Positions 134 to 32,529 of a DNA stretch of 33,519 nucleotides are shown here, piece by piece. The notes below the pieces were generated by a model that searched no databases, was not told the DNA's origin, and saw only the letters and a program-made list of their open reading frames with translations. The stretch spans positions 1 through 33,519 of IMG/VR virus record IMGVR_UViG_3300043395_001007. The stretch is one strand, 5' to 3'. A program made the position numbers and the translations under genes. The first letter of the stretch is position 1; each line of letters starts with the position of its first letter. The DNA comes from a virus.

Positions 134-142
134 TTTTACCCT
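134..142 (-). promoter_or_regulatory. GGGTAAAA box 1 (putative phage promoter)
   Basis: The minus strand reads gtAGGGTAAAATTGG between the small gene ending at 178 and the gene starting at 107. It is one of ten copies of the octamer in the same orientation. A promoter role is inferred from position only. Confidence 0.5.
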
Positions 143-177
143 ACAAGCACCACCATTGGTCCCACTCCAACAACTCT

Positions 178-363
178 TCAATGTAATCTTTCTGCATAGT
201 CATCCCAGCCATCTTTCCCTCCGCACCAAACTCGGTACCGATCGGTTCCGTGCTTCGCGGATTGCGCCAGGTATTTATCAGCAGCAAGGTCTGTAATCAA
301 AACCCTTGCGCCAGTGGTCTCTTGCATCAAGGATGCGTTACGGTCAACAGGAGATTTAGCCAT
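178..363 (-). CDS. Small hypothetical protein (61 aa)
   Basis: This small protein has no family that I recognise. I place the start at the ATG at 363-361 (MAKSPVDRNASLMQ...). An upstream in-frame extension into the end of the terminase gene would need a Cys-rich low-quality leader and an overlap with terL. The product is hydrophilic, with one Cys near the C-terminus and an acidic/aromatic tail (GWDDYAERLH). It follows terL by 52 bases and is the last gene before the GGGTAAAA box at 134-142, so it probably ends the terminase transcript. A 6-bp inverted repeat (370-385) sits just before the start codon. I see no obvious Shine-Dalgarno sequence. Confidence 0.55.
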   Translation of the reverse strand: MAKSPVDRNASLMQETTGARVLITDLAADKYLAQSAKHGTDRYRVWCGGKDGWDDYAERLH

Positions 364-369
364 GGTAAT

Positions 370-385
370 CTGTTGTAAACAACAG
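370..385 (-). repeat. Short inverted repeat before the 363 start codon
   Basis: The sequence CTGTTGTAAACAACAG is a perfect 6-bp inverted repeat with a 4-base loop. It lies in the 52-base gap after terL and ends 6 bases before the next ATG. It could form a weak hairpin over the ribosome entry site. No T-run follows it on the minus strand, so it is not a typical terminator for these genes. Confidence 0.35.
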
Positions 386-415
386 CAACTTTTTAGGCGG
401 TTACCAATCGCCAAG

Positions 416-2149: not shown

Positions 2150-2150
2150 T

Positions 2151-2429
2151 TCAATCTCCTGTTAGTTTTTTCAGCAGTTCGCCAACTTTGCCGTCGTACG
2201 CAACCGCAAGCTCCTGCTCACTCTTTGTTTCTACTTGGGTGAGAGCAACGATATCGGAAGTAATTTCTCTGTGCGCTTTGATCGCGCTATTGAAAATGGA
2301 AACGAGGTCTCGAGTGGAGCACTCTTCCATCTGGTTGGCAAGCTGGTCAAGAGCATCTTTGGCAACAAGCAAGGTGTCTTGCGCCAGGATCTCTTTCTGC
2401 TTGATAATGTCTTCGCGTGATTTAGCCAT
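2151..2429 (-). CDS. Putative terminase small subunit
   Basis: This 92-aa, mostly helical, charged protein is encoded immediately before terL, with one base between them. In many phages that position holds the small terminase subunit, which recognises the packaging site and regulates the large subunit. The N-terminus (MAKSREDIIKQKEILAQDTL) and middle look like amphipathic helices suited to oligomerisation. I cannot point to a definite helix-turn-helix. Its ATG overlaps the stop of the preceding 52-aa gene as TAATG, which suggests translational coupling. The assignment rests on position, size and predicted helicity. An unrelated small packaging accessory protein is the main alternative. Confidence 0.5.
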   Translation of the reverse strand: MAKSREDIIKQKEILAQDTLLVAKDALDQLANQMEECSTRDLVSIFNSAIKAHREITSDIVALTQVETKSEQELAVAYDGKVGELLKKLTGD

Positions 2430-2587
2430 TAGTGGAACCTCTTTCTACATTTAGCACAGCCGCCACGGGGCGGAGGGGGATTACCCCTGTAACTCATAAT
2501 CTTTTGCAAGATTTTCTTTGCCTCTTCCATTTTTCCTTGTTGTACCGCAAGGTGGTAGTTATGCCAGAGTTCTTGTGAAGATTCCAT
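2429..2587 (-). CDS. Small CxxC protein (52 aa)
   Basis: This short gene is linked to both neighbours by overlaps. Its ATG (2587-2585) overlaps the stop of the gp37-like gene as TAATG, and its own TAA overlaps the next ATG in the same way. The protein begins MESSQELWHNYHLAVQQGKM, continues with a Lys-rich helix, and ends in a Pro-rich turn and a CAKCRKRFH tail. One CxxC followed by basic residues and a His could bind metal or nucleic acid, but a single CxxC is weak evidence. The double coupling inside a gapless operon is why I think it is a real gene. I do not recognise a family. Confidence 0.6.
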   Translation of the reverse strand: MESSQELWHNYHLAVQQGKMEEAKKILQKIMSYRGNPPPPRGGCAKCRKRFH

Positions 2588-3804: not shown

Positions 3805-3807
3805 TGT

Positions 3808-4887: not shown

Positions 4888-4895
4888 CAGCTTTC

Positions 4896-5318: not shown

Positions 5319-5320
5319 AG

Positions 5321-6124: not shown

Positions 6125-6126
6125 TG

Positions 6127-6378
6127 TCAAAAAGCCCCACGAGAAAACCGAGGAATGTTTCTAGGGTGAGATTTCGGCTGTTTCGGCTCGCGGGGAAGAG
6201 CAACCTTCACTTTCTCTTCAGCCGGTTCAGGGGCCGAAAAGGTTAGCTCCTCGACTACAGGAAAAGGCTCCGGAGCAGGTTCTGAAATCTCTTCGTTCAG
6301 TTCCGAAAAATCTTCTTCCATGGTTTGAATAGCGTTTTGGTCAGGTTGCTTTAAAGATCTGCGTCTTCGAGTGGTCAT
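6127..6378 (-). CDS. Small Pro/Glu-rich disordered protein (83 aa)
   Basis: The protein starts with a basic patch (MTTRRRRSLKQ), passes into an acidic Glu/Pro-rich middle and ends Lys/Pro rich, so it is probably intrinsically disordered. I recognise no family. It is the first gene after the GGGTAAAA box at 6401-6409, with the ATG 22 bases downstream of the box, and its stop precedes the OB-fold baseplate gene by two bases. The charge pattern and position would fit a small assembly chaperone or a leader-like protein, but nothing in the sequence proves that. Confidence 0.55.
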   Translation of the reverse strand: MTTRRRRSLKQPDQNAIQTMEEDFSELNEEISEPAPEPFPVVEELTFSAPEPAEEKVKVALPREPKQPKSHPRNIPRFSRGAF

Positions 6379-6400
6379 ATGTTGGTTCGAGACTGAATGG

Positions 6401-6409
6401 TTTTACCCG
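6401..6409 (-). promoter_or_regulatory. GGGTAAAA box 2 (putative phage promoter)
   Basis: The minus strand reads CGGGTAAAACCATTCAG immediately after the TAA of the 971-aa gene and 22 bases before the ATG at 6378. The downstream CCATTCAG is shared with box 4 at 16312-16320, so the conserved element may extend beyond the octamer. Confidence 0.55.
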
Positions 6410-13469: not shown

Positions 13470-14021
13470 TCAAAGCGGGCAAACAGTTTCAGTATTACCA
13501 GCTCCTACGGAATAATTTTGGCAAGCATTGTCCGCTTCGGAGTAGTACACGCCGTTGTCAATCACGAGTTGCTCAAGCAGGTTCTCGATTTGATCTTTCA
13601 GAACCAACTTCGTAATCAGGTCTTCATCGTCCAGACCTGAGAATTTTTGCGGAATCGTGGGGGCAATATAACCCGTAGGATTGTTATATTTGTCGTTTGT
13701 TGTGAAACTCTTGGGAGCGTTTTCTTTTACGTTCGCAGGGTTTACGCCACCTGGCTCGTAACCAAAGTTCCACACCCCGGTAACAACCTTGGTGCCAGAG
13801 ATTGCGATTCCACTAATCAGCTGACCACCCTCGAGATTTGGCTGGGGAGTGGTTAGCGTGATATAGCGGGAATCTAAACCATTAGGTCCCGAAGTGATTA
13901 ACGAATTAAGCCCAAGAGGGGGGTAGTGCCAATCTAAATCTTGCCCGTCAAACGAGATTTGTTTTGCGCCATTCAGCCATTGGCTTGTGACGATAACACC
14001 ACTAGAGAAAGTTGTCTTCAT
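13470..14021 (-). CDS. Putative fibre-base or baseplate protein (183 aa)
   Basis: The N-terminal half has a pattern seen in tail-fibre bases and related virion proteins: SSGVIVTSQWLNGAKQISFD, then LDWHYPPLG, then SRYITL. The C-terminal third holds a probable helical segment with LLEQLVID and ends in two Cys. I recognise no named family with certainty. It is the first gene after an intrinsic terminator and a GGGTAAAA box, and its stop leads straight into the GTG of the baseplate J-like gene with the ribosome site overlapping the stop. A structural role in the baseplate or fibres is inferred. Confidence 0.6.
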   Translation of the reverse strand: MKTTFSSGVIVTSQWLNGAKQISFDGQDLDWHYPPLGLNSLITSGPNGLDSRYITLTTPQPNLEGGQLISGIAISGTKVVTGVWNFGYEPGGVNPANVKENAPKSFTTNDKYNNPTGYIAPTIPQKFSGLDDEDLITKLVLKDQIENLLEQLVIDNGVYYSEADNACQNYSVGAGNTETVCPL

Positions 14022-14051: not shown

Positions 14052-14060
14052 TTTTACCCT
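14052..14060 (-). promoter_or_regulatory. GGGTAAAA box 3 (putative phage promoter)
   Basis: The minus strand reads gtAGGGTAAAACCAG two bases after the T-run of the intrinsic terminator at 14063-14087 and 30 bases before the ATG at 14021. A terminator immediately followed by the box is the strongest local evidence that the box starts a new transcript. Confidence 0.6.
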
Positions 14061-14062
14061 AC

Positions 14063-14087
14063 AAAAAATCCCCAGCCGAAGCCAGGG
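14063..14087 (-). terminator. Intrinsic terminator after the tail tube gene
   Basis: On the minus strand the sequence is CCCTGGC, loop TTCG, GCTGGGG, one A and then six T. That gives a 7-bp stem (two G-T pairs) with a stable UUCG tetraloop and a U-run. It ends the highly expressed decoration-capsid-tube transcript 27 bases after the tube stop codon. Confidence 0.85.
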
Positions 14088-14113
14088 ACTTGAAGAACTG
14101 ATTGAACCTTAAA

Positions 14114-15720: not shown

Positions 15721-15764
15721 TGCCTGACGATTACGGTTGCCCAACCAAGGTTAATTATCAGGCA
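15721..15764 (-). repeat. Nested inverted repeat between decoration and capsid genes
   Basis: TGCCTGA (15721-15727) pairs with TCAGGCA (15758-15764), and inside it GGTTG (15735-15739) pairs with CAACC (15742-15746). The structure overlaps the stop of the decoration gene and is not followed by a T-run. It could protect the decoration mRNA 3' end or tune the ratio of decoration to capsid protein. Confidence 0.4.
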
Positions 15765-16237
15765 AAGCTGACGAGAACGAACTTACGACCGCCGATTCCG
15801 ACTTGCTCGCGAATCAGAGGAGTTGTGCCGTCGAGGGTAACAGGGGTGCCATCACCAACGCCAACAGCTTGACCCAGAGTGTTGATTTCGAGCTGAGTGT
15901 TCAGGGTTAGATCGGTCAGAGTTGCAGCAGGGGCAACTTCAACCAGCAGAAGACCGGAGGTAGCAACGGTCAGCTGACGAGCGGTATAAGGCTGAGCCAG
16001 AGCAGTAGGCATGTAAGCCTGGTTGATACCAACGATGGTATCTACGCCGCCGGGAGTTGTGAAAGCGTCAGGTGCAGCAGCGAAGTTAGGGCCAGCCCAG
16101 GTGGCGTAAGAAACGGCGCGAAATTCGCCGATCTCAACAACACCGGGATCGCCATCTTGATTGTCAGCAGGAGCTTCGAAAGTTTCTGCGTAACGGATGT
16201 ACTGACGGCCGTATACGGGACCTGCGTTTGTAGCCAT
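15758..16237 (-). CDS. Capsid decoration (cement) protein
   Basis: The 159-aa protein precedes the major capsid gene, the usual place of a capsid stabiliser. It is rich in Ala, Thr, Val and Gly with little Lys, and reads as a small beta domain of the DUF2190/cement type. The recognisable parts are GEFRAVSYATWAGP, ARQLTVATSGLLLVEVAP, a LNTQLEINTLGQAVGVGDGT stretch and the ending GGRKFVLVSFA. Such proteins bind the outside of the expanded head. I place the start at ATG 16237, which has GGAG 6 bases upstream, and reject the TTG four codons earlier. It opens a transcript behind the GGGTAAAA box at 16312 with an unusually long leader of about 74 bases. Confidence 0.65.
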   Translation of the reverse strand: MATNAGPVYGRQYIRYAETFEAPADNQDGDPGVVEIGEFRAVSYATWAGPNFAAAPDAFTTPGGVDTIVGINQAYMPTALAQPYTARQLTVATSGLLLVEVAPAATLTDLTLNTQLEINTLGQAVGVGDGTPVTLDGTTPLIREQVGIGGRKFVLVSFA

Positions 16238-16311
16238 GGAATTCTCCAAAGTATGAGGACTTCAATTTGTTTACTCTGGGACTTGTTTTTACACCCAGTT
16301 AAACTGAATGG

Positions 16312-16320
16312 TTTTACCCT
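16312..16320 (-). promoter_or_regulatory. GGGTAAAA box 4 (putative phage promoter)
   Basis: The minus strand reads TAAGGGTAAAACCATTCAG. The TAA is the stop of the minor head protein, and the box lies 74 bases before the decoration start. This promoter would drive the capsid transcript. An 11-base palindrome, CAGTTAAACTG (16296-16306), follows it. Confidence 0.6.
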
Positions 16321-16973
16321 TAACGGTACTCGATGCTACACCTGCACCGATCGTAGCATTGACATTCCTTACCAGGCATCGGTAGAGTTCCCAAGGGTTG
16401 CCAACCGAGCCTACCAAACATTACGCAGTCGGGGCAAGTTCTGGAGTCGAGTTTCGGAACTCTTCTCATTTCTCTGTATCCTTGGTCTTGCCTTACGTAA
16501 TACTGGCCAAGGTTGAAGAAGGAGTAGGAAGGGTTTGCAATGTAACGGATCACCCGAATCAGCAAACCAGGCCAACTTCTTACTTCAGCAAATTCTTGTG
16601 TTTTATCGCCCAACAGAATACCTCCGTTGTCGAGTGCATCTTTTGTTTCAGCTAGAAATTCATGAAGGGGAGGGAGCATTTCGCCAACGATTGTCGCCCA
16701 TGCTCTCTCCATCTTCCCGCGAGGATTGACGTCTTCGGCGCCAAGACTAACAGCGGTAAGCGCAGAGATGAGAGTTTTATCTAAGAGGGATCTTTCGTAT
16801 TCCTCCCACCTCATTTGCTTATCACGAAGACCCTTCACCAAAACATTAGCTTCGTTGATCATTCTTTCTTCCAGCTCAGGCTGGGAGTGAACTTTCTTTC
16901 GTAAAGCTTCAGCTTGGGTGAAGTAATCTCCCCTCCGCTTTGTGGCCATGCCGATTAAAGAGAGGAGATCCAT
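16320..16973 (-). CDS. Mu gpF-like minor head protein (short form)
   Basis: The C-terminal 50 residues carry the metal-site pattern of Mu gpF/SPP1 gp7-type minor head proteins: LDSRTCPDCV, then GWQPLGTLPMPG, then CQCYDRCRCSIEYR. Cys pairs and the final CRC are typical of that domain. The first 150 residues are helical and charged. Mu gpF and relatives are often over 350 aa with a longer N-terminal part, so this 217-aa form looks reduced. It follows the protease/scaffold gene by eight bases with a GAGG before the ATG. Known members are minor components near the portal that affect head assembly or DNA ejection. Confidence 0.6.
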   Translation of the reverse strand: MDLLSLIGMATKRRGDYFTQAEALRKKVHSQPELEERMINEANVLVKGLRDKQMRWEEYERSLLDKTLISALTAVSLGAEDVNPRGKMERAWATIVGEMLPPLHEFLAETKDALDNGGILLGDKTQEFAEVRSWPGLLIRVIRYIANPSYSFFNLGQYYVRQDQGYREMRRVPKLDSRTCPDCVMFGRLGWQPLGTLPMPGKECQCYDRCRCSIEYR

Positions 16974-16981: not shown

Positions 16982-19390
16982 TCAGTTGTACATTGTGCGC
17001 TTAATCGCTTCTACGTAGTCAATTCCTTCAGACTCAACCAGCTTCAGAGCTTTAGCGTGAGGGTCAAGATCCTCTTCAGCGTACTGGAAAGTTCCACCAG
17101 CGATTTCGCTGTAGGAAACCATCGGGGGAAGTTTGCTCAGCAGACCAAGCAGCTTGGTAGCGGCAGTTTCGCCTTCCGAGAACTCCAGGGTGCCAAAGTC
17201 CAGACCTTCGCAGTAGCTTTGCAGCTCACTTTGAGGCATGATGCCGTCGGTCAGACGACCTTCATCATAGAGGGACTCAACGAAAGAAGCGATCTTGGCC
17301 TTGCGGGCATTCATCTTCTCCTCAGCGAAGCGGCGCTGAAGCTCAGCATGCTCTTTCTTCAGGCGATCCAGCTCCTCGAAGATTGCGTCGGGATAACCCA
17401 TCGGCTTGGCTTGGGCCATTGAACCCATGCCGTAATCCATGCCGCAGTGGTCAGCGGAAAGCTCGTTGAAATCCTCTTCGTCATCCTCACCTTCGCCGTC
17501 TTCGTCGTAAGTCGAACCGAATCCAGTCTTAGTGTAAGGCTTCTTCTCTTCGCCATGCTCTTCAGCAAAGGCTCCATCAGGACCAACTGTGCGAGCGGCT
17601 TCATCAGTTTCGCCCATAGCACCAGGGGTCAGGTGCTTATCCTTGGCTTTCTTCTCACCCTTGTAACCTTCAGCAAACACGCCATCGGGGCCAGTTACTT
17701 CAGCAACGCCACCTTCAAAGTGACCAGGCTCTAGTTGACCCTTCTTGATCTTGGCTTTGCCTTGAGTCAGGTCGTCAACTTCGCCCATGGCGGTAACGCC
17801 CATGTCGGAAGTTACTTCGTCTGCTTCAGGCTCAGCGTGGTCGATCTTGCCACCCTTGGTAGCTTGACGGCCATCGCTGCTCTTTTGACGCATCACACGC
17901 ATGCTACCATCGGACATCACGTTAATGGTGCTAACGGCAAACACTTCGTTGTCGGGAGATTCTTCGGTTTCCGTCGGAACCTTGGTGTCAGCATCTTCGC
18001 GTCCAGCAGGGTTAGAACCCGAGGCAGTCTTGGGCTTGTTAGGCTCAGGATAGCTGTCGGTGTCTGCATCGTACTGATCGCCGTTTTCGGTGCGACTTGC
18101 TGCGTCAGCTTGGCCAGCCCAGCGAGATTCGCCAGTTGCATTATCCGAACCGTCCTTGGCAGTTTTCTTGCGGTCAGAATCTTGCTCTGAGTTCTTTGCG
18201 GTCTTGTTACGATCTGCTTCTTGCTCACCGCTCTTGGCAGTATGCATACGATCGTCGCCAACTCCGCCTTTGCCTTCCTTGCCAGTCTTCATGCGGTCGG
18301 CGTAACCTTCGTCTGAAGAACGGGCAGTGTCATAACGACCGGTCTCATCAAAGTCCATCTCATCTTCGTCATCTTCTGCAAAATGACCTTGAGCTTTGAC
18401 TTCAGCGGAACGCTTTTTCAGAGCTGGGGGCAGTTCTTTGTGCTGCTCATCCATTCCTACTTCCTCGCCGGGGTGAGCTTTAGCTTTGGCTTTCATTTCC
18501 TCAGCTTTGGCCTTCAGTGCCGGGGGAAGTTCTTTGTGTTGTTCGTCGTAGACGTTTTCTACAACCTGCATTACTTGGCCGTGGGCACCTTTGGCGTGCT
18601 TACGGCTGATTTTTCCGTCTTCCATAAATTGTTCCTCTGGGAATTGGTCTTCAAGTTCAGCCGTCTGCTGAGTGATTTCGTTGGTTTTAACCTTTGATTT
18701 GGCTTGTTTTGAACCCTCCGCGAATTGTTGATTTTCTTCCGGGCTCGCGATTTCAGCGGGTGCTTTCGCACTACTTGCTTCATCCACTTCGGTTTCTTTT
18801 TGTTCTTCGCCGGAATCTTGAAGATCTTTGACAGCAGATGAAACATCTTGCCGTACTTCATCAAGCTTCTCACGAAGAATTTCGAGAGGGCTTTTCTCCA
18901 CGATTAACGTAGGGCCAAGCTCGTCATCGAAAATTTCACTCGGGGAGAGGGCAACGGCGAAATCGAAGCATCCCTCCTTTTCCGTGAATGAGAAAGGCTC
19001 AAGACCTTTTACAGCGGGGGGAGATGCCCCCAGCAGTGCCAGGTGTCTTGCGCTCCATTTCCCTCCATGCGGATTGATTTGACTATCCGGAGAATAAAAG
19101 GAAATAGATACCTTGCGGTAGTGACCATTCTTCACCAAATCCTTTGCCGTGTCAGTGAAAGAGACGTCGGCGTAAAGGTTTGGCCCTTCTCGTGAGAATC
19201 CTTGGATCCAGCCAAAAGATGGTAAGCTATCATTATCACCTTGATGCCCGAGAACTACAGGAGCTTCGTGAATCGAAGGGTCATAGGTATCGACAACTTG
19301 TTGAAGATCTTCTGGCAGAAAGGTCCGCTTAATTCCTTGAGCAGAGGTCTGATCACCCGCACGAAATACGTGAATTCTTTTAGTGAACAC
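16982..19390 (-). CDS. Prohead protease/scaffold fusion (Mu gpI-like)
   Basis: Residues 1-145 follow the Mu gpI protease family closely: RIHVFRAGDQT, DLQQVVDTYDPSIHEAPVVL, GHYRKVSISFYSP and HLALLGASPPAVKGL. The C-terminal part (about 665-800) is a coiled coil (FEELDRLKKEHAELQRRF) followed by SFVESLYDEGRLTDGIMPQ, typical of the scaffold part of these fusions. Between them are about 500 acidic, low-complexity residues. This stretch includes a duplicated DEQHKELPPALK (282-293, 314-325), three copies of a DRxxTAK unit (379-412) and a repeated GPDGxFAE element (567-575, 603-610). Mu gpI has about 360 aa, so the middle is a large insertion. The start appears to be GTG 19390, because a stop codon lies two codons upstream in frame. 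The protease would mature the prohead while the scaffold shapes it. Confidence 0.85.
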   Translation of the reverse strand: MFTKRIHVFRAGDQTSAQGIKRTFLPEDLQQVVDTYDPSIHEAPVVLGHQGDNDSLPSFGWIQGFSREGPNLYADVSFTDTAKDLVKNGHYRKVSISFYSPDSQINPHGGKWSARHLALLGASPPAVKGLEPFSFTEKEGCFDFAVALSPSEIFDDELGPTLIVEKSPLEILREKLDEVRQDVSSAVKDLQDSGEEQKETEVDEASSAKAPAEIASPEENQQFAEGSKQAKSKVKTNEITQQTAELEDQFPEEQFMEDGKISRKHAKGAHGQVMQVVENVYDEQHKELPPALKAKAEEMKAKAKAHPGEEVGMDEQHKELPPALKKRSAEVKAQGHFAEDDEDEMDFDETGRYDTARSSDEGYADRMKTGKEGKGGVGDDRMHTAKSGEQEADRNKTAKNSEQDSDRKKTAKDGSDNATGESRWAGQADAASRTENGDQYDADTDSYPEPNKPKTASGSNPAGREDADTKVPTETEESPDNEVFAVSTINVMSDGSMRVMRQKSSDGRQATKGGKIDHAEPEADEVTSDMGVTAMGEVDDLTQGKAKIKKGQLEPGHFEGGVAEVTGPDGVFAEGYKGEKKAKDKHLTPGAMGETDEAARTVGPDGAFAEEHGEEKKPYTKTGFGSTYDEDGEGEDDEEDFNELSADHCGMDYGMGSMAQAKPMGYPDAIFEELDRLKKEHAELQRRFAEEKMNARKAKIASFVESLYDEGRLTDGIMPQSELQSYCEGLDFGTLEFSEGETAATKLLGLLSKLPPMVSYSEIAGGTFQYAEEDLDPHAKALKLVESEGIDYVEAIKRTMYN
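18155..18301 (-). repeat. Degenerate tandem repeat coding DRxxTAK units
   Basis: Within the protease/scaffold gene, residues about 364-412 repeat a 13-14 residue unit: ADRMKTGK, DDRMHTAK, ADRNKTAK, SDRKKTAK. The DNA copies have diverged, so the peptide pattern, not the DNA, seems conserved. Confidence 0.6.
18416..18547 (-). repeat. Duplicated DEQHKELPPALK segment
   Basis: The 12-residue segment DEQHKELPPALK occurs at residues 282-293 and again at 314-325 of the protease/scaffold, 32 residues apart. The identity of all 12 residues suggests an internal duplication. Confidence 0.7.
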
Positions 19391-19416: not shown

Positions 19417-19425
19417 TTTTACCCT
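19417..19425 (-). promoter_or_regulatory. GGGTAAAA box 5 (putative phage promoter)
   Basis: The minus strand reads GAAGGGTAAAAAATG. The TAA inside the octamer is itself the stop codon of the portal gene, so coding and regulatory functions overlap. It lies 26 bases before the GTG of the protease/scaffold gene. Confidence 0.55.
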
Positions 19426-20840
19426 TCCTGCTCCTCGATTGCCACTTCTTGGGTGTCAATAGGTTCTTCCTCAGGTGCTGGTGTTGTTTCAGCAGGAGCA
19501 GTGGATTCTTCGCCAGGTATAGAAGAAGTATCGTCTCCGAAGATTGAGCTGTATAGATCTTGATCTTCTTCTGGATTATAAGTCGTGGGGGAGGTTTGAT
19601 CTTCAGGACCTCCACTCTCTCTTTTATCTTCCAGTTCAACCCGGAAGTGTCTCTCCAGCCACTCTTTCTTCGGAGTAAACCCGGATTGAATCAGTAGGGC
19701 AACATCCGGCATGGCCAGAGTTGATTCTTCGATTCGGAACTCTCGAGTTAGAACTGGAGCGGCAACATCCGTACCGAAGTTCAGGTCCACAATCCAGCGA
19801 ACCAAAGTTTGAGTCAGGGACTGGGAAATAATTTCGGAAAGTTCAGAAGCTTTCACCACACGAACAACATTGGCAACTTGCGAAGAGGCGCGAGAGCCAG
19901 CTTCTGCCTGACCTGCCTCGTTTTCCCCGCAAATAAGTACGCTAATTTCCTTGTCAATATAGTCAATCAGGTTCTTAAAGACGTCGGGACTTCCACTCGG
20001 AGTAACGAACTCTAGTTCGTAACCTTCCGGCAGAATCATCGCCGTTTCTTGACTCAGGTTTGAAAGGTGATCGTACAGAGTGTCAATTTCTTTTGTGCTG
20101 GCACTCAAAGGTGCTTTCGCCACGGCTGTTGGGGTGGCATACCGGTCCCCGTAAAGAACGTAAGATTCAATCGCTCTACGACGAAACTTCACGAGCGGGT
20201 ATAGAATCCTTCCTAGAGCGGCACCATAAGGATCGCCGTTGTGTGACACCCAGTAACGGTTGACAATGAATTTTCTATTTGGTAGCTCGACACCTTCGAA
20301 CATTCGGTTGAAGGTAAGGCAGCGCATTGTGAATCCAGTTTGAGCCTCCTCTTTTTCCTGGAACACAAAGCGACGCTGATCGCGCATTCTGACATCGAAA
20401 GGTATTACGCCACGCTTCGTCTTCTTCCACATCACTTCTCCTACGGAGAAACCTGTGATAATTGCTTCTGCCAGACCCTTGTAAATATCATCCAGCGGAA
20501 TCTCTTCTAGAACTTCGCTCACGAAGTCCCTTACGGCGATATCGCCCGGTTTTTCGCTATATTGCTCTACGTACCACGGGCGAGAAGTAATTTCTTGAAC
20601 CAGCTTGGAAAAACAACCCTGCACCTGCTCATCATACAGTAGCCGCTGATAAACAGACAGAGCTCTGTTGCCCCCCTTTTGAATCAGAAGGTCATCGTTC
20701 GGGCGAACAATAGTATTACCTTGACCTGTGAACGGGCTGCTAGACCCGAACATGTAGATCGAAGATAAATTATAGGGGTCAGAAGTGTAACGAGCTACCT
20801 CTCCCGATGGCACTGGGGCTGTCTTAAATCTCTGAGCCAT
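19419..20840 (-). CDS. Portal protein (Mu gp29-like, DUF935)
   Basis: The 473-aa protein fits the Mu gp29 portal family. It has YDEQVQGCFSKLVQEITSRP followed by WYVEQYSEKPGD, then a helix with YKGLAEAIITGFSVGEVMWK, then MRDQRRFVF and FIVNRYWVSHNGDPYGAALG with a Lys/Arg-rich patch. The C-terminal part holds ISVLICGENEAGQAEAGSRA and ESTLAMPDVALLIQSGFTP as in the family. The last 60 residues are very acidic (Glu, Asp, Thr, Pro) and possibly disordered. Twelve copies would form the DNA entry ring to which the terminase docks. It stands alone between two GGGTAAAA boxes (20875 and 19417), so it appears to be its own transcription unit. A GAGGA precedes the ATG. Confidence 0.9.
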   Translation of the reverse strand: MAQRFKTAPVPSGEVARYTSDPYNLSSIYMFGSSSPFTGQGNTIVRPNDDLLIQKGGNRALSVYQRLLYDEQVQGCFSKLVQEITSRPWYVEQYSEKPGDIAVRDFVSEVLEEIPLDDIYKGLAEAIITGFSVGEVMWKKTKRGVIPFDVRMRDQRRFVFQEKEEAQTGFTMRCLTFNRMFEGVELPNRKFIVNRYWVSHNGDPYGAALGRILYPLVKFRRRAIESYVLYGDRYATPTAVAKAPLSASTKEIDTLYDHLSNLSQETAMILPEGYELEFVTPSGSPDVFKNLIDYIDKEISVLICGENEAGQAEAGSRASSQVANVVRVVKASELSEIISQSLTQTLVRWIVDLNFGTDVAAPVLTREFRIEESTLAMPDVALLIQSGFTPKKEWLERHFRVELEDKRESGGPEDQTSPTTYNPEEDQDLYSSIFGDDTSSIPGEESTAPAETTPAPEEEPIDTQEVAIEEQEG

Positions 20841-20874
20841 CCAATCCTCTGACAGTCTCTTAGCTTGTCTTTAA

Positions 20875-20883
20875 TTTTACCCT
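20875..20883 (-). promoter_or_regulatory. GGGTAAAA box 6 (putative phage promoter)
   Basis: The minus strand reads TTAAGGGTAAAATTAAAG directly after the stop of the gp25-like gene (the TAA is that stop). It lies 34 bases before the portal ATG. Confidence 0.6.
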
Positions 20884-21547: not shown

Positions 21548-21554
21548 TTTTAGT

Positions 21555-24500
21555 TTACTGACCCAGACCCTGGATGTTCAGTTCGTTTTGCATCTGACCG
21601 ATAGCAACGCGAATCAGGTCGATTTGGATTCTCTCCAGTGTCGGAACCGGAGTCACAAACACCTTGGCGTTAATGATTCCGTTCTCCAGAGATGCAGGCG
21701 GGTTAATGCGGTTGTCGCAAATAACCTGGAACGCATCGCTCGGGCGAGCTCCATACAGAGCGCCGCGAGAGTACAGCTGGTTCAGAACGCTGTTTCCAAC
21801 CGAGATGATCTGGTTGAAAGCAACACCGAATCCGTCAATCACGTTGAAGATCTGGCTGTCGAAGGCGCTTCTCAGTGAACCGTAAACAACGTTCAGAATG
21901 ACGCGAGTGTTTACGAACTGATACAGACGCTGCTGAGCATCCGAGGACTTGACGCGAGTTCTGCCACCCCAGATGAACACGGCGCTGGTCGGATAACCAG
22001 GCAGAGTACGGATTGCGTTGCAACCGTCCGGGTTCAGCAGGTTCTGCTGAGCAGAGTTGATCGGAATTTGAGTTGCCACTGCATCGGCAAGTTGATACTT
22101 GACACCAGCAGGCGGGAACTGGTAACCTTCGGCGCGGTAACGGCGGATGGCAACACCTGTCACGTAAGGTGAAGGCGGAATCCACTGACCGGACGCATTC
22201 TCGATGTAAGGACCGTAGAACGCAATGAAACCGAATGGGTTGAAGTAGTTCTGGCTGTCAGCATACAGGCGATTGACGTTGTCAACACCAGCTTCCAGGA
22301 ACACGGCTTGAGGCACACCGTTGAAACCAACACCACGCAGAGCGTCGTTGATGATTTCAGTCGAGGTGATAGGATCGAAGCGCCACAGCTGGCTCGGAGG
22401 AGTTACTTCAGAGGTGAAGTCTAGAGCAACCTGAGAACCATAGCAAGGTTGACCAGCAACGGCAAGATCACCACCAGCAGGAATTACCATCCAGTCGTAC
22501 TCTGTTCCGTTGTAAATAACGGCAATACGATCACCAACCTTAACTTCGGTTACACCGTCGGGGGCAACTGAGTTTGTCGGAGCGACAGTCACATTGAAGT
22601 AAACGCCAACTAGCTTAGCAATGGCGGCTTGAACATCGGAACCGGTGTCCAGGGCAGCCAAACCAGTAGCAGCGGAGTAAGTTGTAGTGGTGTCCAGAAC
22701 ACCTGCAGCAGCTGTGGTGTCAGCTTCATAGTTTCCACCAAAGATTGGCTCAATAGCGGGAACAAGGAATGCCTGGGAGGCGTAGTTCTGGTCTACAGTT
22801 GGGGTGCAGTACCAGTTTTCTAAGGTTGTAGAAGGCGAACCAGGGGGAGTAAGAATCAGGGATCCTTGCTGAGTGTCTGGACGAGAACCAGAACCTTCTA
22901 ACCATGTTGCGCTCGAATCTTCCCCAAACGGTGAAACCAGATCAACACCTAGGGAGGTTAAGCTGTTATTCAGATAGAGCGAAACACCGGGGTTGTTAAC
23001 TGACGGAGCGGGGGTTGCAGTGGCGGGGGCAGCCTCCTCATAGATTTGGCCTGCGTTGAGGCCGTACTTTCTACCGCGAATCAAGGAAACAACAGAAATC
23101 TCAGCCAGAGAAGACGAAGTTGCCTCACCAGCAAGAGTCTTAGAATAAAAGATCGTAGGACTCGAGACGAGGGAGGCGGTTCCAGTTGGGAATGTGATAA
23201 ATGCGCCAGCAGTGTAAGCTGTCAGACTTTCGGCAAGACAGAAAGTGTTGGCGTCAATCTTCTTGACGAAGTAAGGCGTTTCCACCTTTTTGGTTGTAGC
23301 ACGGAAAAGAAACTTACCGGCATTTGTTTTTACGGGCTGCGTGAAGAACAGCTTTTGACCGTCGGTTAGACCGTGTGCAACGCAGGTGATTTGAGCATTC
23401 CCTGTCACAGAAGTGACCGAACCAGCAATTGATGCCGCAGGGTTTAAAATAGTTCTAGAAACAAAATTCAGACGGTAGTTTGCAGTTGCATCCATCAGAG
23501 ATGCAGGCAGGTGCAAAGTATTCACGTATTGAGAAATACCTGAAGTGTTCTGAACCAGGTTAGAAGTTTGACCGTTGATTGTTTGAGGCAGGCTGTAGAA
23601 AGGAACAACGTAAGTTAGTCCGACTGTTCCAGTTCCACCAGGAAACTGGAGAGCGTCTGCAGGGTTTGTCACAAACTGTGAACCACCACCAGAGGTTACT
23701 TCATCCAGAACTGAAACGGCATCCGAAGCGGTCAGAGCGAAGAATACCTCGTTTTCTGAATAATCGCCTGTTGCGTCAAAATTGTAAGGAGGAGCAATGA
23801 CAAAGATTGTGCCATTTTCTTCCTTACCCTCTGCCAGCATAGTGGCGAGAATGTCGCCAGTTGCGTTGCTATAGGTAACTTCTTGAATCTGGTAAGTTAC
23901 AGGCCAGTAGTTGACAGTATCCAGCGTCAAACGCTTTTCATCGGTTGGCTCAACTGCAGTCACAGTGTAGAAAGCCGAGTCCAGTAGACCTGCTTTACCA
24001 CCTGCGGCAACAGGTGTTGCACTAGCCGATTCCTTAACCGCAGTCTTGGCGGTTGGGGACGCAATTAGAGCCTGGTAAGTTAGCTTGTCGTAGGAGACAT
24101 CAGTACCAACCCACTCGTACATGGCGTTGTCCACCAGGTACTTACGACCGGTGATTAGATCAGCGGCAGGCTCGTGAGGAACGTAGGCGCTATACTTGTT
24201 GATATCGGTAACCAGGAAAGGACCGGGATCAGCAAGAGCCATCCACTTGTAGTTGTTGTTCTCGCAAAGTGCAGCAGCAGCAGCACCGATAGCAGCACGG
24301 TCCTTAGTGTCAAACTGCACATAAGCAGTAGGAGTGATCAGGTAGCCCTGATCTTGTTGACCGTCGAAAGCGGTGTCAATGCACTGAATGTAGTCCTGAG
24401 CTACTCTCTCCAGATTCTGCTGTTGACCAACAATGTTCTGAATGTCGTAGACGTTTTGCATCAGCACATACTGAGCACCAACAGGGAATACTGTCGGAAT

Positions 24501-25226
24501 GATGCTCACGCTTCCGTCAAAGGTTGTAGCAGCGATTGTTAGGAATCCGTTCTCCGAGTTAGAGAGGGGATTCACGCTTGTTACCAGACCGAAGTCACGA
24601 ACATACACCGAGCTTCTGATGCTAGGGTTGCTCTCAATCGCTTCTGCAATTGCTGTAGCAATAGCTGAGGAAATTCTGCGGTTGTTAACTTCGTCCCCGG
24701 GAATGTAGTCAACGGGAATGGTGATGGGAACACCAAGCCACTCTCCATCTGCGGTAAAACCAGTGGCTCCGTCGCCTGCAACCAGCCGTTGGCCGTTGAT
24801 GACGATTTGGGCGTAAACTACGTCACCAGCTTCAAAGTTGGTGGGCAGTCCAGCATTGCTCTGCTTTGTCCCGTTAGGGAGAATTTCAATCTCTACGATT
24901 TCGTCAGGTGTTCCAACACGAACAACCCGAAGATCTCCGATCTGGGCATTCTGGAAGAACTCGTTGACGCAGTTGTAGCTCAGTAGAGGAATTCGGGCTT
25001 CGGGAACACTTCCGCCAACAAGGGCGAAGTAGTCGTTCAGCGAAGTGAGCGGAATGGGTGTGTTAAATGGGAATACTGTTACAGGCACTGTCTCTTCTGC
25101 TTCAACGAGCATGTAAACAGTGCTAAAATCGGCAATAGCTGCGTTTGCAGCAACTCCAGCTCTCTCGTTGATATATACGCCGGGAGCGCCAGGGGTGTTT
25201 CCACCGCCTAGGGAAAAAGTGGCCAT
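21555..25226 (-). CDS. Tail sheath protein, very large form (1223 aa)
   Basis: The N-terminus (FSLGGGNTPGAPGVYINERA) and the C-terminal 250 residues match contractile sheath proteins. The latter hold a PPAGVKYQLADAVATQIPIN segment, CNAIRTLPGYPTSAVFIWGG, then a helical core IDGFGVAFNQIISVGNSVLN and the final GIINAKVFVTPVPTLERIQI. The conserved sheath core is usually 350-660 residues, so about 600 residues are inserted. Around residues 605-690 lies a small beta unit of the kind found in many phage structural proteins: ITCVAHGLTDGQKLFF, TPYFVKKIDANTFCLAES. The inserts would project from the sheath surface. It is the first gene after the GGGTAAAA box at 25330, with a 103-base leader. Confidence 0.9.
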   Translation of the reverse strand: MATFSLGGGNTPGAPGVYINERAGVAANAAIADFSTVYMLVEAEETVPVTVFPFNTPIPLTSLNDYFALVGGSVPEARIPLLSYNCVNEFFQNAQIGDLRVVRVGTPDEIVEIEILPNGTKQSNAGLPTNFEAGDVVYAQIVINGQRLVAGDGATGFTADGEWLGVPITIPVDYIPGDEVNNRRISSAIATAIAEAIESNPSIRSSVYVRDFGLVTSVNPLSNSENGFLTIAATTFDGSVSIIPTVFPVGAQYVLMQNVYDIQNIVGQQQNLERVAQDYIQCIDTAFDGQQDQGYLITPTAYVQFDTKDRAAIGAAAAALCENNNYKWMALADPGPFLVTDINKYSAYVPHEPAADLITGRKYLVDNAMYEWVGTDVSYDKLTYQALIASPTAKTAVKESASATPVAAGGKAGLLDSAFYTVTAVEPTDEKRLTLDTVNYWPVTYQIQEVTYSNATGDILATMLAEGKEENGTIFVIAPPYNFDATGDYSENEVFFALTASDAVSVLDEVTSGGGSQFVTNPADALQFPGGTGTVGLTYVVPFYSLPQTINGQTSNLVQNTSGISQYVNTLHLPASLMDATANYRLNFVSRTILNPAASIAGSVTSVTGNAQITCVAHGLTDGQKLFFTQPVKTNAGKFLFRATTKKVETPYFVKKIDANTFCLAESLTAYTAGAFITFPTGTASLVSSPTIFYSKTLAGEATSSSLAEISVVSLIRGRKYGLNAGQIYEEAAPATATPAPSVNNPGVSLYLNNSLTSLGVDLVSPFGEDSSATWLEGSGSRPDTQQGSLILTPPGSPSTTLENWYCTPTVDQNYASQAFLVPAIEPIFGGNYEADTTAAAGVLDTTTTYSAATGLAALDTGSDVQAAIAKLVGVYFNVTVAPTNSVAPDGVTEVKVGDRIAVIYNGTEYDWMVIPAGGDLAVAGQPCYGSQVALDFTSEVTPPSQLWRFDPITSTEIINDALRGVGFNGVPQAVFLEAGVDNVNRLYADSQNYFNPFGFIAFYGPYIENASGQWIPPSPYVTGVAIRRYRAEGYQFPPAGVKYQLADAVATQIPINSAQQNLLNPDGCNAIRTLPGYPTSAVFIWGGRTRVKSSDAQQRLYQFVNTRVILNVVYGSLRSAFDSQIFNVIDGFGVAFNQIISVGNSVLNQLYSRGALYGARPSDAFQVICDNRINPPASLENGIINAKVFVTPVPTLERIQIDLIRVAIGQMQNELNIQGLGQ

Positions 25227-25329: not shown

Positions 25330-25338
25330 TTTTACCCT
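25330..25338 (-). promoter_or_regulatory. GGGTAAAA box 7 (putative phage promoter)
   Basis: The minus strand reads TAAGGGTAAAAGATAAG; the TAA is the stop of the LysM-like gene. The sheath ATG is 103 bases downstream, the longest leader in the set, so the sheath mRNA may carry regulatory structure. Confidence 0.6.
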
Positions 25339-25700: not shown

Positions 25701-25701
25701 G

Positions 25702-26055: not shown

Positions 26056-26057
26056 GG

Positions 26058-26471: not shown

Positions 26472-27213
26472 TTGCGCCTTGCGCTTTTCTTAACCTCTTG
26501 CTCTTGTTTTTCCGCAAAATCCTCAAGAATGCTAATCATTGTGAGGATCTTACTCATTGGTTGTTTTTCTAGCCATTCAACAGTGCTGTCCCAACGTTGT
26601 TTACAAAGGTGAAAAGAAACTTCCAGCCAATTTTCAACTGTTAAGACTTTTTCGTTGATAATCTCTTGACCAATCCACCCGAATAACTTTTCAGCTTGTG
26701 GTATTGTAAGGTTCTCAAGGTCGTCAACGTTAAGAATCAGTCTAGCTATCAACGGTAGCATGCCGCTTTCTTTGTTTCGAAGTAACTGGGCGAAATAAAA
26801 GTCTTTGGGACAGACTTCTCTCACATGTATCGTTACTTCGTCATCAAAGATGAGGTGATACGTGAAATCTTCGAGATCTTCAACGATTAGTTTGGGTCAG
26901 CTTCGTCCTCCGTTCCACTCGCTTGTGCAACGAGGTCGCTGAGTTTCTTGAAATCTCGAACACCGAGATCTAGGATCTCGTCGTAGGTGATTTTGTCGGA
27001 ACCAACAATCAATCTTTCGATGATCTTCATTCCTCTTTCGACGTCGCCTGCTTTTCCAAGTTCTTTCTCCATGTAAAGCAGGTCTCGACCCGTCATTTCC
27101 CGGATTTCAATCTTCCGGCCATCAGAGATGGTAGTAACAAAGGTCTCAAGCTTAGGTTTTTTAGCTTCAACTGCTGGCGTAGTTTGTCCAGCTTCCGACG
27201 AGATTGTTCGCAT
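26468..27213 (-). CDS. Tail assembly chaperone long form (GT, -1 frameshift product)
   Basis: A -1 slip at CCCAAAC joins the upstream chaperone frame to a downstream frame that has no convincing start of its own. Reading continues from C26890 as CTA ATC GTT GAA... without a stop and enters the frame ending at 26468. This adds 140 residues for a total of 248 aa. The downstream part begins LIVEDLEDFTYHLIFDDEVT and is helical with acidic and Trp-containing helices. Lambda G/GT and Mu 41-type pairs use the same strategy to make a small amount of a longer chaperone that loads the tail length ruler. The only candidate separate start is GTG 26824, with no ribosome site. The fused form is inferred, not proven. 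Confidence 0.75.
26887..27213 (-). CDS. Tail assembly chaperone short form (G-like)
   Basis: The 108-aa protein has the core of small tail chaperones: FVTTISDGRKIEIREMTGRD followed by LLYMEKELGKAGD, that is a strand-turn-strand with R-E-M-T-G-x-D-L and then helices. Such proteins coat the tape measure protein before tube assembly and are not kept in the virion. Its zero frame ends at TAA immediately after the CCCAAAC heptamer. It is the first gene after the GGGTAAAA box at 27240, with its ATG 26 bases from the box. No tape measure gene follows within the window, unlike the usual arrangement. Confidence 0.75.
   Translation of the reverse strand: MRTISSEAGQTTPAVEAKKPKLETFVTTISDGRKIEIREMTGRDLLYMEKELGKAGDVERGMKIIERLIVGSDKITYDEILDLGVRDFKKLSDLVAQASGTEDEADPN
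26890..26896 (-). promoter_or_regulatory. -1 ribosomal frameshift site CCCAAAC
   Basis: The minus strand reads GAC CCA AAC TAA in the zero frame, so C-CCA-AAC is a perfect X-XXY-YYZ slippery heptamer with a stop codon directly after it. Slipping one base back re-reads the final C and opens the chaperone extension. I see no strong hairpin or pseudoknot just downstream, so the stop codon itself may cause the pause. Confidence 0.75.
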
Positions 27214-27221
27214 AGTAATTG

Positions 27222-27440
27222 CTAAGTGATGCTGTCAAGTTTTACCCTGGCTTTAACCAGGGCGATTTCTATTTCGTCATCCCCTTCGCCCGGAGGCAAA
27301 GAGAGATAAATTTCACGCGCGATTTTCCAACTGATCTCAGCCCCGGCAGGATCTTGCTCTAGTCGGTCAGCGATGTCGGTTATCCATGCCCAGACAACTT
27401 CTTTTCGGAATTCGCCGTCTTGTGGCAGGGGGAAAGGCAT
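27222..27440 (-). CDS. Small acidic protein (72 aa)
   Basis: I do not recognise a family. The protein is acidic with a Trp-containing helix (EVVWAWITDIADRLEQD) and a second helix holding SWKIAREIYLSLPPGEGDDE, and ends in a predicted helix. It has no membrane or signal segment. The ATG overlaps the preceding stop (TAATG). The last codons overlap the GGGTAAAA box at 27240-27248, so the 3' end of this gene doubles as the putative promoter of the chaperone transcript. Confidence 0.6.
   Translation of the reverse strand: MPFPLPQDGEFRKEVVWAWITDIADRLEQDPAGAEISWKIAREIYLSLPPGEGDDEIEIALVKARVKLDSIT
27240..27248 (-). promoter_or_regulatory. GGGTAAAA box 8 (putative phage promoter)
   Basis: The minus strand reads CCAGGGTAAAACTTGACAG. 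It lies inside the last codons of the 72-aa gene and 26 bases before the chaperone ATG. This is the only copy buried in a coding region, and it encodes the residues R-V-K of that small protein. Confidence 0.5.
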
Positions 27441-30420: not shown

Positions 30421-30425
30421 GGTTT

Positions 30426-30434
30426 AGTATAGCG
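30426..30434 (-). promoter_or_regulatory. CGCTATACT element before the polymerase (weak promoter candidate)
   Basis: The minus strand reads CGCTATACT and then AAACC directly before the polymerase ATG. The same 9-mer occurs before the gene at 32465. TATACT resembles a bacterial -10 box, but no matching -35 box is present and it lies only five bases from the start codon. Kept as a low-confidence site. Confidence 0.25.
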
Positions 30435-30452
30435 GAGTTTGGCGCGGTAAAC

Positions 30453-30815
30453 TCAGTAAGCTCCCAAGGTGTCAATGGGCGGGGGATCGGTAGTGCCTGT
30501 TGTCTCATTGGGGGCAATAGCACGAACTGTTGAGCTGACTGGTACGCCCACTTCATTTATCCACCAGTTGGAAGGTCGAACTGGAAACCACCGGTAGCGG
30601 AGACCGAATACGCTGTTGTAACTGTACACGCTAGGTTGGCCCATAAAGGGGGTTCCGGGGTTCCAGAGAGGTCCCGGGCGTGTGAAATAATTCGCACTGT
30701 TGTTTGTCCAACCTTTGTATTGAGGGGCTAGGATGTTACCTAGGAGTTCGGTATCAATAGATCCGGCGTTGTACTCGGTGACGGCTTTTGCCATCTGAAC
30801 AGCACGAGGGTTCAT
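30453..30815 (-). CDS. Hypothetical Trp/Tyr/Pro-rich protein (120 aa)
   Basis: I recognise no family. I place the start at ATG 30815 (MNPRAVQMAKAVTEYNAGSI), with AGGA 6 bases upstream. The longer frame would put the GGGTAAAA box (30840-30848) inside the gene. The first 35 residues are helical, and the rest is rich in Trp, Tyr, Pro, Asn and Gly with a repeated aromatic pattern (GLRYRWFPVRPSNWW) and a Thr/Pro-rich end. It resembles exposed virion proteins in composition. It precedes the polymerase by 32 bases and is probably co-transcribed with it. Confidence 0.6.
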   Translation of the reverse strand: MNPRAVQMAKAVTEYNAGSIDTELLGNILAPQYKGWTNNSANYFTRPGPLWNPGTPFMGQPSVYSYNSVFGLRYRWFPVRPSNWWINEVGVPVSSTVRAIAPNETTGTTDPPPIDTLGAY

Positions 30816-30839
30816 ACAAATCCTATAACCATAGGTGTA

Positions 30840-30848
30840 TTTTACCCT
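30840..30848 (-). promoter_or_regulatory. GGGTAAAA box 9 (putative phage promoter)
   Basis: The minus strand reads TGAGGGTAAAATACACC. The TGA is the stop of the 85-aa gene and the box lies 24 bases before the ATG at 30815. It probably starts the transcript that carries the polymerase. Confidence 0.55.
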
Positions 30849-31105
30849 CAAAAGGTGCAGTCCCAGCAAAGTTTACCAGGGTTTTCGTCGTACAGGCCAA
30901 GGTTTCGAGCCTGGTTGATAGCATCCAAGGTGTCACGATCATTCTTCAGTCGTCGATGAAGGCGCAGCCTCCAGAGGACATATTCCCTCGCATTCTTATT
31001 GGATGGTTCCGTCAGATATTTCTGATACTTTGACTCGACGGTTTGAACGATACCAACACCAACTTTTTCGATCAGGTGGTCAACTTTGCGAAGAGCTTTT
31101 GCCAT
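30848..31105 (-). CDS. Hypothetical helical, basic protein (85 aa)
   Basis: I do not recognise a family. The protein is mostly helical and basic (MAKALRKVDHLIEK, then REYVLWRLRLHRRLKNDRDT) with a C-terminal CWDCTF that contains a CxxC. It overlaps the stop of the coiled-coil gene as TGATG. The Arg/Lys-rich helices and the end would fit nucleic acid binding, but the sequence offers no clear domain. It is the last gene before the GGGTAAAA box at 30840-30848. Confidence 0.6.
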   Translation of the reverse strand: MAKALRKVDHLIEKVGVGIVQTVESKYQKYLTEPSNKNAREYVLWRLRLHRRLKNDRDTLDAINQARNLGLYDENPGKLCWDCTF

Positions 31106-31908
31106 CAGTCTGCAGTGAAAGAGAACATCTTGAGCTCAAAGTTTCGAACACCCGAGCTTTCGTAAACAGCGTCTTTGTTCTTCTTATAGATTTCGTAGGC
31201 GTCAAAGATTGAGGAGAAATGAAGCGGTCGGTCTGCAGGACTGCTTCGCCAGAGGAGCATTTCCTGAAGAGACAAGGGTACATCGATGTCCCACTGTTCA
31301 TCTCGCGAGGAATAGAGAAGAGGAAGAGCATCGTTCCTCCACCAGTCGCAAATCTGAGTGCTGTATTCCTCCCACGCCAACGGATCGGTAAGGTGAGTGT
31401 CGCAAGTTTCGCGAATCCACTGAACATATTCTCGACCACGTTGAACCACAACTGTGGCGCTTGAGGGAACTTCGTCCAGGAAATAAGCTTCCTCGTCACC
31501 GCGCACCACTCGTTCAATGACAGCAGGAAATAGGAAAGATTCCGAAATCAAACGGAAATCTTCGGCACCTGCGCTAACTTGACGGAGGATTGCTTCCAGG
31601 ATAGAGATGGTGGTGGCAATCTGAAGCTCTTCGCCAGAGGCCGAAGCTTTTGGTTTCGCATCGGGAAGACCTTTCTTCAGAAGAGTCAGTTCTCGCTCAA
31701 GGCGCCGAACCTCCCGACCCAGCTCCCGTTCGAGCTTATTCTTGTAAATCTCTGACTGAGTTATCAGGTTGTCGAACTTGGTATCGAGCTTTTCTAGCTC
31801 GGCATCAAAATGCTCGACAGAGACCTTGAGGTTAGAGAGTTTTTTCTTCAGCGAAGTTACTGAAGAGCGAATAGAATTGGTTGCGTAAAGTAGGTTGTCT
31901 GCAGTCAT
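31105..31908 (-). CDS. Hypothetical protein with N-terminal coiled coil (267 aa)
   Basis: Residues about 1-80 form a long heptad-like coiled coil (SSVTSLKKKLSNLKVSVEHF, then LEKLDTKFDNLI, then RELGREVRRLERELTLLKKG). A Lys/Ser/Pro linker follows, and then a mixed helical domain with several Trp (IRETCDTHLTDPLAWEEYST, ICDWWRNDALPLL). No catalytic motif is visible. The ATG overlaps the preceding stop as TGATG and the gene sits between two other unknown genes in a short unit behind the GGGTAAAA box at 32521. A structural, assembly or DNA-processing role cannot be chosen from sequence. Confidence 0.65.
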   Translation of the reverse strand: MTADNLLYATNSIRSSVTSLKKKLSNLKVSVEHFDAELEKLDTKFDNLITQSEIYKNKLERELGREVRRLERELTLLKKGLPDAKPKASASGEELQIATTISILEAILRQVSAGAEDFRLISESFLFPAVIERVVRGDEEAYFLDEVPSSATVVVQRGREYVQWIRETCDTHLTDPLAWEEYSTQICDWWRNDALPLLYSSRDEQWDIDVPLSLQEMLLWRSSPADRPLHFSSIFDAYEIYKKNKDAVYESSGVRNFELKMFSFTAD

Positions 31909-32465
31909 CAGATTGGGCGAATCGTGGCTCGTAGTTGGTCCGTGTTAACGTCGATGACTTCAACGTTAAACGAGTATAGGCGCTCAGGGTCGCTCAGTAA
32001 ATGGAAACTGCCTTCAAACCGGTCCCCGTCGCGGGAACGAAGGTAGTAGTTGCCCGGAGTTGGAGGTGAGCAGAGCGCAATGTTTCCAGCAAACTCCGGG
32101 TTGGATTCTTCGATTGCGGATACCAGCCTCTGGTAAATCGCAGAGGCAGCGGCCATCTCACTGTCGTTGGAAATCTGGGCACGGATTTCGCCTTCGATTG
32201 CCTCCAGATTGGCTGCGATTCCTGAATCTAGAATAATCTCAAAGATTGCTCCCTCGTCCTTAACTAGAAAGCAAACTTCTTCGGAGTCGAACTCACAATC
32301 TTCTGGATTGTCGAACAGTTGAAAACCGTGCTCTAGAAGATCATAGAAGGTTTCTTTCAAGGTGTCCGCGTCAGGACCACCAAAGAAGTTGGCAATCGCG
32401 TGAAAAATGCGGGGGTTGGCGAGTAAACGCGCCACAGGGTAAATCAGCTGTTGTTCGTCCATCAC
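31908..32465 (-). CDS. Hypothetical acidic protein (185 aa)
   Basis: I do not recognise a family. The protein is acidic, with a predicted helical N-terminus (QLIYPVARLLANPRIFHAIA) and a strand-rich second half holding GNYYLRSRDGDRFEGSFHLL. Two tandem ATGs open the gene (32465 and 32462), preceded by GGAG. It is the first gene of a three-gene unit behind the GGGTAAAA box at 32521-32529 and overlaps the next start as TGATG. A CGCTATACT element lies 16 bases before the start. Confidence 0.65.
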   Translation of the reverse strand: MMDEQQLIYPVARLLANPRIFHAIANFFGGPDADTLKETFYDLLEHGFQLFDNPEDCEFDSEEVCFLVKDEGAIFEIILDSGIAANLEAIEGEIRAQISNDSEMAAASAIYQRLVSAIEESNPEFAGNIALCSPPTPGNYYLRSRDGDRFEGSFHLLSDPERLYSFNVEVIDVNTDQLRATIRPI

Positions 32466-32481
32466 AGTTCTCCGCCGAAGC

Positions 32482-32490
32482 AGTATAGCG
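32482..32490 (-). promoter_or_regulatory. CGCTATACT element before the 32465 gene (weak promoter candidate)
   Basis: The same 9-mer as at 30426-30434 lies 31 bases downstream of GGGTAAAA box 10 and 16 bases before the ATG. It may be a bacterial-type -10 box active at another stage of infection. No good -35 box is visible. Confidence 0.25.
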
Positions 32491-32520
32491 ATCCCGTGGG
32501 TTGGTAATCGTTTAGCATGG

Positions 32521-32529
32521 TTTTACCCG
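32521..32529 (-). promoter_or_regulatory. GGGTAAAA box 10 (putative phage promoter)
   Basis: The minus strand reads CCGGGTAAAACCATGC two bases after the stop of the topoisomerase gene and 55 bases before the ATG at 32465. It shares the CCAT that follows the octamer in boxes 2 and 4. Confidence 0.55.

Follow-up and report, generated by a model that had tools for sequence, protein, structure and literature searches.

The late promoter of bacteriophage T4, TATAAATA, has no -35 element (PMC2988020). Promoters of the SigB/SigF type (group 3) are composed of a -35 element, GTTTWW, and a -10 element, GGGWAW, and in the SigB open complex residues R110, R100 and R97 contact -15G, -14G and -13G of the latter (PMC11156646). 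The cyanomyovirus Ma-LMM01 has no gp55, and host SigA-like motifs are used (PMC5780444).

The DNA considered here, referred to as the window, is a 33,519-nt fragment (33.5 kb) from IMG/VR (record IMGVR_UViG_3300043395_001007, positions 1 to 33,519). Its genes, which run on the minus strand, encode a terminase, head-tail adaptor, baseplate, tube, major head, protease, portal, sheath and neck proteins, a polymerase and a topoisomerase II fragment. Identity to the proteins of Synechococcus phage S-CBWM1 (Aokuangvirus) is 65% for the portal protein and 58% for DNA polymerase gamma, and to those of phage S-TIM5 it is 35-38%; judged by these sequences, the fragment is that of an S-CBWM1-like (Aokuangvirus) cyanomyovirus. 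In the tail sheath protein (21555-25226, 1223 aa) the match to the sheath family is confined to the last ~220 residues, and the long N-terminal part lies outside it.

The octamer GGGTAAAA is found ten times on the minus strand of the window and not once on the plus strand (whole window, both strands counted); 100 dinucleotide shuffles yield a mean of 1.17 copies and a maximum of 4 for both strands together. The recount returned exactly the ten low coordinates and the common orientation reported in the initial annotation. There, the copies were assigned to the coding strand, which is correct because the genes of the window run on the minus strand as well, and the chance rate was put at one per 65 kb per strand, which is near the rate in the shuffled sequences. 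The sites are as follows.

134..141, minus strand: GGGTAAAA box; a phoH-like gene starts 26 nt on, at 107, and runs off the window
6401..6408, minus strand: GGGTAAAA box, 22 nt ahead of gene 6378..6127
14052..14059, minus strand: GGGTAAAA box, 30 nt ahead of gene 14021..13470; adjoins a hairpin and T-run (seen by eye)
16312..16319, minus strand: GGGTAAAA box; abuts the stop of gene 16973..16320, ahead of gene 16249..15758
19417..19424, minus strand: GGGTAAAA box on the portal stop codon; head maturation protease gene 19390..16982, 26 nt on
20875..20882, minus strand: GGGTAAAA box; abuts a TAA stop; portal gene 20840..19419, 34 nt on
25330..25337, minus strand: GGGTAAAA box; abuts a TAA stop; tail sheath gene 25226..21555, 103 nt on
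27240..27247, minus strand: GGGTAAAA box on the 3' end of gene 27440..27222; gene 27213..26887, 26 nt on
30840..30847, minus strand: GGGTAAAA box; abuts a TGA stop; next start codon 24 nt on, at 30815; the DNA polymerase gene lies beyond
32521..32528, minus strand: GGGTAAAA box after the topoisomerase II fragment; gene 32465..31908, 55 nt on

None of the ten copies lies in a gene body when the last 20 nt of each gene are counted as allowed, and only 7.2% of the window positions qualify as outside by this definition; all copies are thus intergenic or over a gene end, as had been claimed. The boxes at 27240 and 19417 overlap the final bases of a gene, and at the latter site the box itself supplies the stop codon of the portal gene (GGG TAA). 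Three copies (25330, 20875 and 16312) begin with TAAGGGTAAAA, where TAA is the stop of the gene before, which bears out the earlier remark that several do so; the box at 30840 follows a TGA stop. The distance from box to start codon is 22-30 nt at six sites (6401, 30840, 19417, 27240, 14052 and 134), the number first reported, provided that the start at 107 of the truncated phoH-like gene, as read from the sequence, is counted for the box at 134. The other four boxes stand 34 nt (portal), 55 nt, 62 or 74 nt (depending on which of two candidate starts is used) and 103 nt (sheath) from the start codon. A pattern scan compared with shuffles revealed no excess of terminators immediately ahead of the boxes in the window. 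A hairpin with a TTCG loop followed by a T-run is seen by eye at 14060-14095, immediately ahead of the 14052 box; it was missed by the pattern scan.

The strand bias is also seen in relatives. Many copies within genes or on the other strand had been named as evidence against a promoter; instead, in the loci of 80 relatives fetched via the portal gene (928 kb), there are 301 gene-strand copies of GGGTAAAA and 0 on the other strand, the same gene-strand bias is seen in whole records of relatives, and in the S-CBWM1 genome the count is 33 vs 1, where GGGTAAAA is the top over-represented octamer on the gene strand. Twenty of the 33 S-CBWM1 boxes are intergenic (10.5% of that genome is intergenic) and nine overlap a gene end; the distance to the start codon is mostly 30-39 nt. 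A stretch at 26.7-47.5 kb in S-CBWM1, largely of small unknown genes, is free of boxes. In a 277 kb relative (G022), 28 of the 30 forward boxes are found at 167-277 kb, alongside virion and replication genes. Between its conserved parts, this jumbo genome also harbors ~120 kb of genes, mostly on the minus strand, that are almost free of boxes.

The box is retained at orthologous gene junctions. An exact copy is present at the sheath junction in 29 of 30 orthologues, where the majority base of the flanking positions has a frequency of only 0.43-0.44, at the protease junction in 61 of 63, at the portal junction in 47 of 62, and at the junctions corresponding to 14052 and 27240 in all non-redundant orthologues (23/23 and 28/28, respectively). 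When genes of S-CBWM1 are used as the reference, the box precedes gene 47527 (the 27240 site) in 11/11, gene 130799 (orthologous to the gene after the box at 16312) in 9/10 and gene 43091 (orthologous to the gene after the box at 32521) in 7/8 cases. Orthologous phoH genes have the box 46-74 nt upstream, counted from box start to start codon, in eight of nine relatives. Three neighbouring genes, serving as internal controls in the same comparison, are almost throughout without a box. In contig G037 the phoH gene is inverted relative to that of the relatives and the box, 56 nt upstream, is inverted too, while opposite-strand boxes in G004 and G005 are each found near a forward box, ahead of a reverse-strand reading frame. 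The box turns with its gene, which distinguishes a gene-linked signal from one linked to the replication strand.

A logo built from 339 non-redundant box contexts shows that T is disfavoured just before the box and that a pyrimidine pair (YY) follows just after it. Positions 13-14, i.e., 6-7 bases after the box, favour a pyrimidine followed by A (Y13 A14, A at 0.58). No -35 signal was found in these contexts by position or by k-mer, the upstream information being on average 0.015 bit per position, and no motif of the GTTTWW type (about 14 bp upstream, as for SigB/SigF group 3) is conserved or enriched upstream of the boxes. Judged by sequence, a box with a pyrimidine-A step and without a -35 element is a single-box promoter layout. 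Pairs of the host sigma-70 type (TTGACA / TATAAT) are not in excess over shuffles in the window, and in those upstream regions of S-CBWM1 that have no box, a search for another motif yielded only terminator-like repeats. Two repeats were observed in S-CBWM1: one related to CAGATGTGAAAGATTATTCACTGTCCCA is found directly upstream of, or near, four boxes (26662, 65887, 126638 and 135703), and GGCGGTAAACCGCCCTTTAC-like repeats, perhaps terminators or another repeat family, are found at several intergenic places. Promoter function of GGGTAAAA is very likely; we infer it strongly from the box, its placement, conservation and orientation with the genes. The predicted transcription start point is 6-7 bases after the box. 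The linked genes are probably late, although a few boxes are found ahead of the topoisomerase/DNA polymerase module, which in other phages tends to be expressed early or in the middle phase and counts against a late class. In the literature no description of this box in these phages was found; an earlier mention in the S-CBWM1 or S-TIM5 genome papers is possible.

A search for a sigma-like gene elsewhere, as had been suggested, identified two sigmas encoded by S-CBWM1, here called SIG1 and SIG2. The SIG2 gene is found at 109152-109877 of the S-CBWM1 record, following nrdA. SIG1 (S-CBWM1, L091:1633-2247), likewise a conserved phage sigma, has regions 2 and 4 and is encoded near SIG2. When contigs were fetched with SIG2 alone as the query and then searched for the box, 22 of the 22 records carried the box with a strand bias. 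Portal-derived contigs without SIG2 are truncated, e.g., G013 stops inside nrdA, just short of the place of SIG2; within the window's own genome, represented by a 33.5 kb fragment only, SIG2 was not seen.

A SIG2 profile compared with PDB sequences matches S. aureus SigB (2.5e-9) and FliA, and by sequence SIG2 is a SigB/SigF-type sigma. Residues Arg100, Arg90 and His87 of SIG2 align with R110, R100 and R97 of SigB (8x6g_H) and are all invariant in 24 SIG2 sequences; the counterpart of R97, which contacts -13G, is thus a His and not an Arg. Pfam region 2 is found in all members. Residues 173-220 (one member shown) give no match to Pfam region 4, although a missing match does not amount to proof. 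An AlphaFold model of moderate confidence (mean pLDDT 74, pTM 0.42) has a single helix after residue 200. SIG2 therewith appears to be without the -35-reading helix-turn-helix; because the model is only moderate, this apparent loss rests on the missing match. It would agree with a promoter that has no -35 element, as evidence of moderate strength. Foldseek and VIA-align confirmed the sigma domain 2 fold; over the whole chain the superposition is poor (rmsd about 20), and they are therefore of little value for the C-terminal part. The matches listed in this structure comparison include no gp55 chain.

These data support the earlier proposal of a sigma-like factor encoded outside the window: a conserved phage sigma is found, and its host-type relative reads GGGWAW. 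SIG2 is the probable reader of GGGTAAAA, and we give considerable credence to the explanation as a whole, i.e., that GGGTAAAA forms the core of a single-box late (virion) gene promoter of S-CBWM1-like cyanophages, read by SIG2. In the proposed mechanism, SIG2, encoded after nrdA, would recruit the host RNA polymerase core. Domains 2 and 3 of SIG2 would recognize GGG in duplex form and open the helix at TAAAA, and transcription would start 6-7 bases past the box, so that most sites would yield leaders of about 15-30 nt. A -35 element would not be used because SIG2 appears to be without the helix-turn-helix that reads it.

The phage S-TIM5 (Aurunvirus) lends itself to comparison. Its one annotated sigma shares 25% identity with SIG2; the phage has no match to SIG1 and does not use the GGGTAAAA box. 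Instead, GTTTAAAG occurs at 26 sites in its upstream regions vs 1.3 expected, on both strands and including back-to-back pairs, mostly before virion genes and about 34 nt from the start codon. In 26 contigs fetched with the S-TIM5-type sigma there are 66 copies of GTTTAAAG, 9 of GGGTAAAA and 5 of each reversed control. GGGTAAAA is found with SIG2 and GTTTAAAG with the S-TIM5 sigma, and thus two sigma types pair with two boxes; GTTTAAAG is a candidate sister single-box promoter of S-TIM5-type cyanophages. The two systems share a homologous sigma, a single box before virion genes, a distance of ~34 nt to the start codon and similar downstream bases, but differ in the box, in the sigma (25% identity) and in the use of both strands by GTTTAAAG, which would work on both because the late genes of S-TIM5 lie on both. 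A more general rule, in which the box is the partner of every phage SigF-like gene, was rejected: S-CBS2 has its own sigma pair, yet no excess of GGGTAAAA or GGGTA is found in its upstream regions, and the box is therefore not tied to every such gene.

It is unlikely, but not remotely so, that GGGTAAAA is a promoter read by SIG1 or a host group 3 sigma instead of SIG2. SIG1 is conserved in 11 of 12 box-bearing records tested, the twelfth being a fragment, and therefore cosegregation alone cannot select the reader. However, SIG1 matches sigma regions 2 and 4 only and a two-box promoter would therefore be expected, while no -35 signal was found; the single-box system of S-TIM5 exists with no SIG1 match; and readout of GGG suits the domain 2-3 architecture of SigB-type factors. 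It is for these reasons, i.e., architecture, the S-TIM5 case and the comparison with SigB, that SIG2 was chosen.

That the box lies on the transcribed strand ahead of start codons and tracks gene orientation would also be expected if it acted in RNA, whether to direct processing, to signal antitermination or to enhance translation from within the leader. This reading is very improbable, however, considering that the box-to-start spacing varies from about 22 to 103 nt and that boxes also precede tRNA genes, which are found downstream of two S-CBWM1 boxes without a nearby start codon. Furthermore, the conserved bases just after the box sit at the distance of an initiator, many boxes abut or overlap a stop codon, and SigB-type -10 elements share the box sequence.

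Phage RNA polymerases use conserved, strand-biased promoters, and a polymerase had been the other reader initially suggested. That GGGTAAAA is the promoter of a single-subunit or multisubunit phage enzyme has hardly any probability left: no such gene was found with PF00940 in S-CBWM1 or three relatives, where the T7 control matched in the same search, or with PF04998, for which control genomes matched in 14/14 cases, and promoters of the T7 type exceed 8 bp. An oriented, Chi-like octamer that serves replication, recombination or packaging and has no tie to transcription would account for the strong strand bias, but is the least probable reading of all, practically negligible, because the boxes are restricted to gene junctions, are fixed at orthologous ones and invert with the inverted phoH gene.

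The single-box phage promoter with a sequence unlike that of T4, as originally proposed, is thus supported by the footprints at orthologous junctions, the inverted phoH box, the lack of a -35 signal and the initiator-like step. Most likely, a large group of cyanophages uses GGGTAAAA before virion genes as a transcription start signal read by a phage-encoded sigma; what is novel is that the box is predicted to be a new version of the T4-style single-box phage late promoter. The boxes would provide a readable late-gene map for a widespread, little-studied cyanophage lineage in which much of the genome is without an assigned function, and box-preceded genes can be catalogued as probable late genes. 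One of the genes behind a box encodes NMNAT, which has been reported as a component of the S-CBWM1 virion (PMC10665884). The two homologous sigmas, each with its own box, constitute a natural pair for studies of shifts in -10 recognition, a compact promoter and sigma pair may be of use in cyanobacterial work, and the findings bear on the question of whether the T4 solution to late transcription is unique.

Among known systems, Ma-LMM01 is also a cyanomyovirus, with early, middle and late classes, but differs in its SigA-like motifs, while sigma-70-like sites are not in excess in the window. With SigB/SigF group 3 promoters the phage system shares the GGGWAW -10 element, which is contained in GGGTAAAA and nearly invariant at orthologous junctions, and SIG2 retains the arginines that contact the first two G (PMC11156646). 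It differs in that the phage boxes are without a -35 element and SIG2 shows no match to that part of region 4 which reads the -35. The T4 gp55 system has in common with GGGTAAAA a short single box near -10, upstream of virion genes and without -35 conservation, and, in our proposal, a phage sigma that works with the host RNA polymerase. The box sequences are different; if the conserved A is the GGGTAAAA start, TAAA is found at the same positions in TATAAATA (PMC2988020; the alignment is inferred here). Another difference from gp55 is that SIG2 carries sigma domain 3, and the best matches of the two are PHROG 234 (gp55) and PHROG 351 (SIG2) with none shared, so that SIG2 is outside the gp55 sequence family. 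A reasonably probable scenario is one of parallel solutions in separate sigma lineages, where a phage sigma of the SigB/SigF type would have lost the part that reads the -35 and would now serve as a dedicated late sigma with one eight-base promoter, in parallel to gp55 in T4, with boxes that diverge between genera (GGGTAAAA for SIG2, GTTTAAAG for its S-TIM5 homologue).
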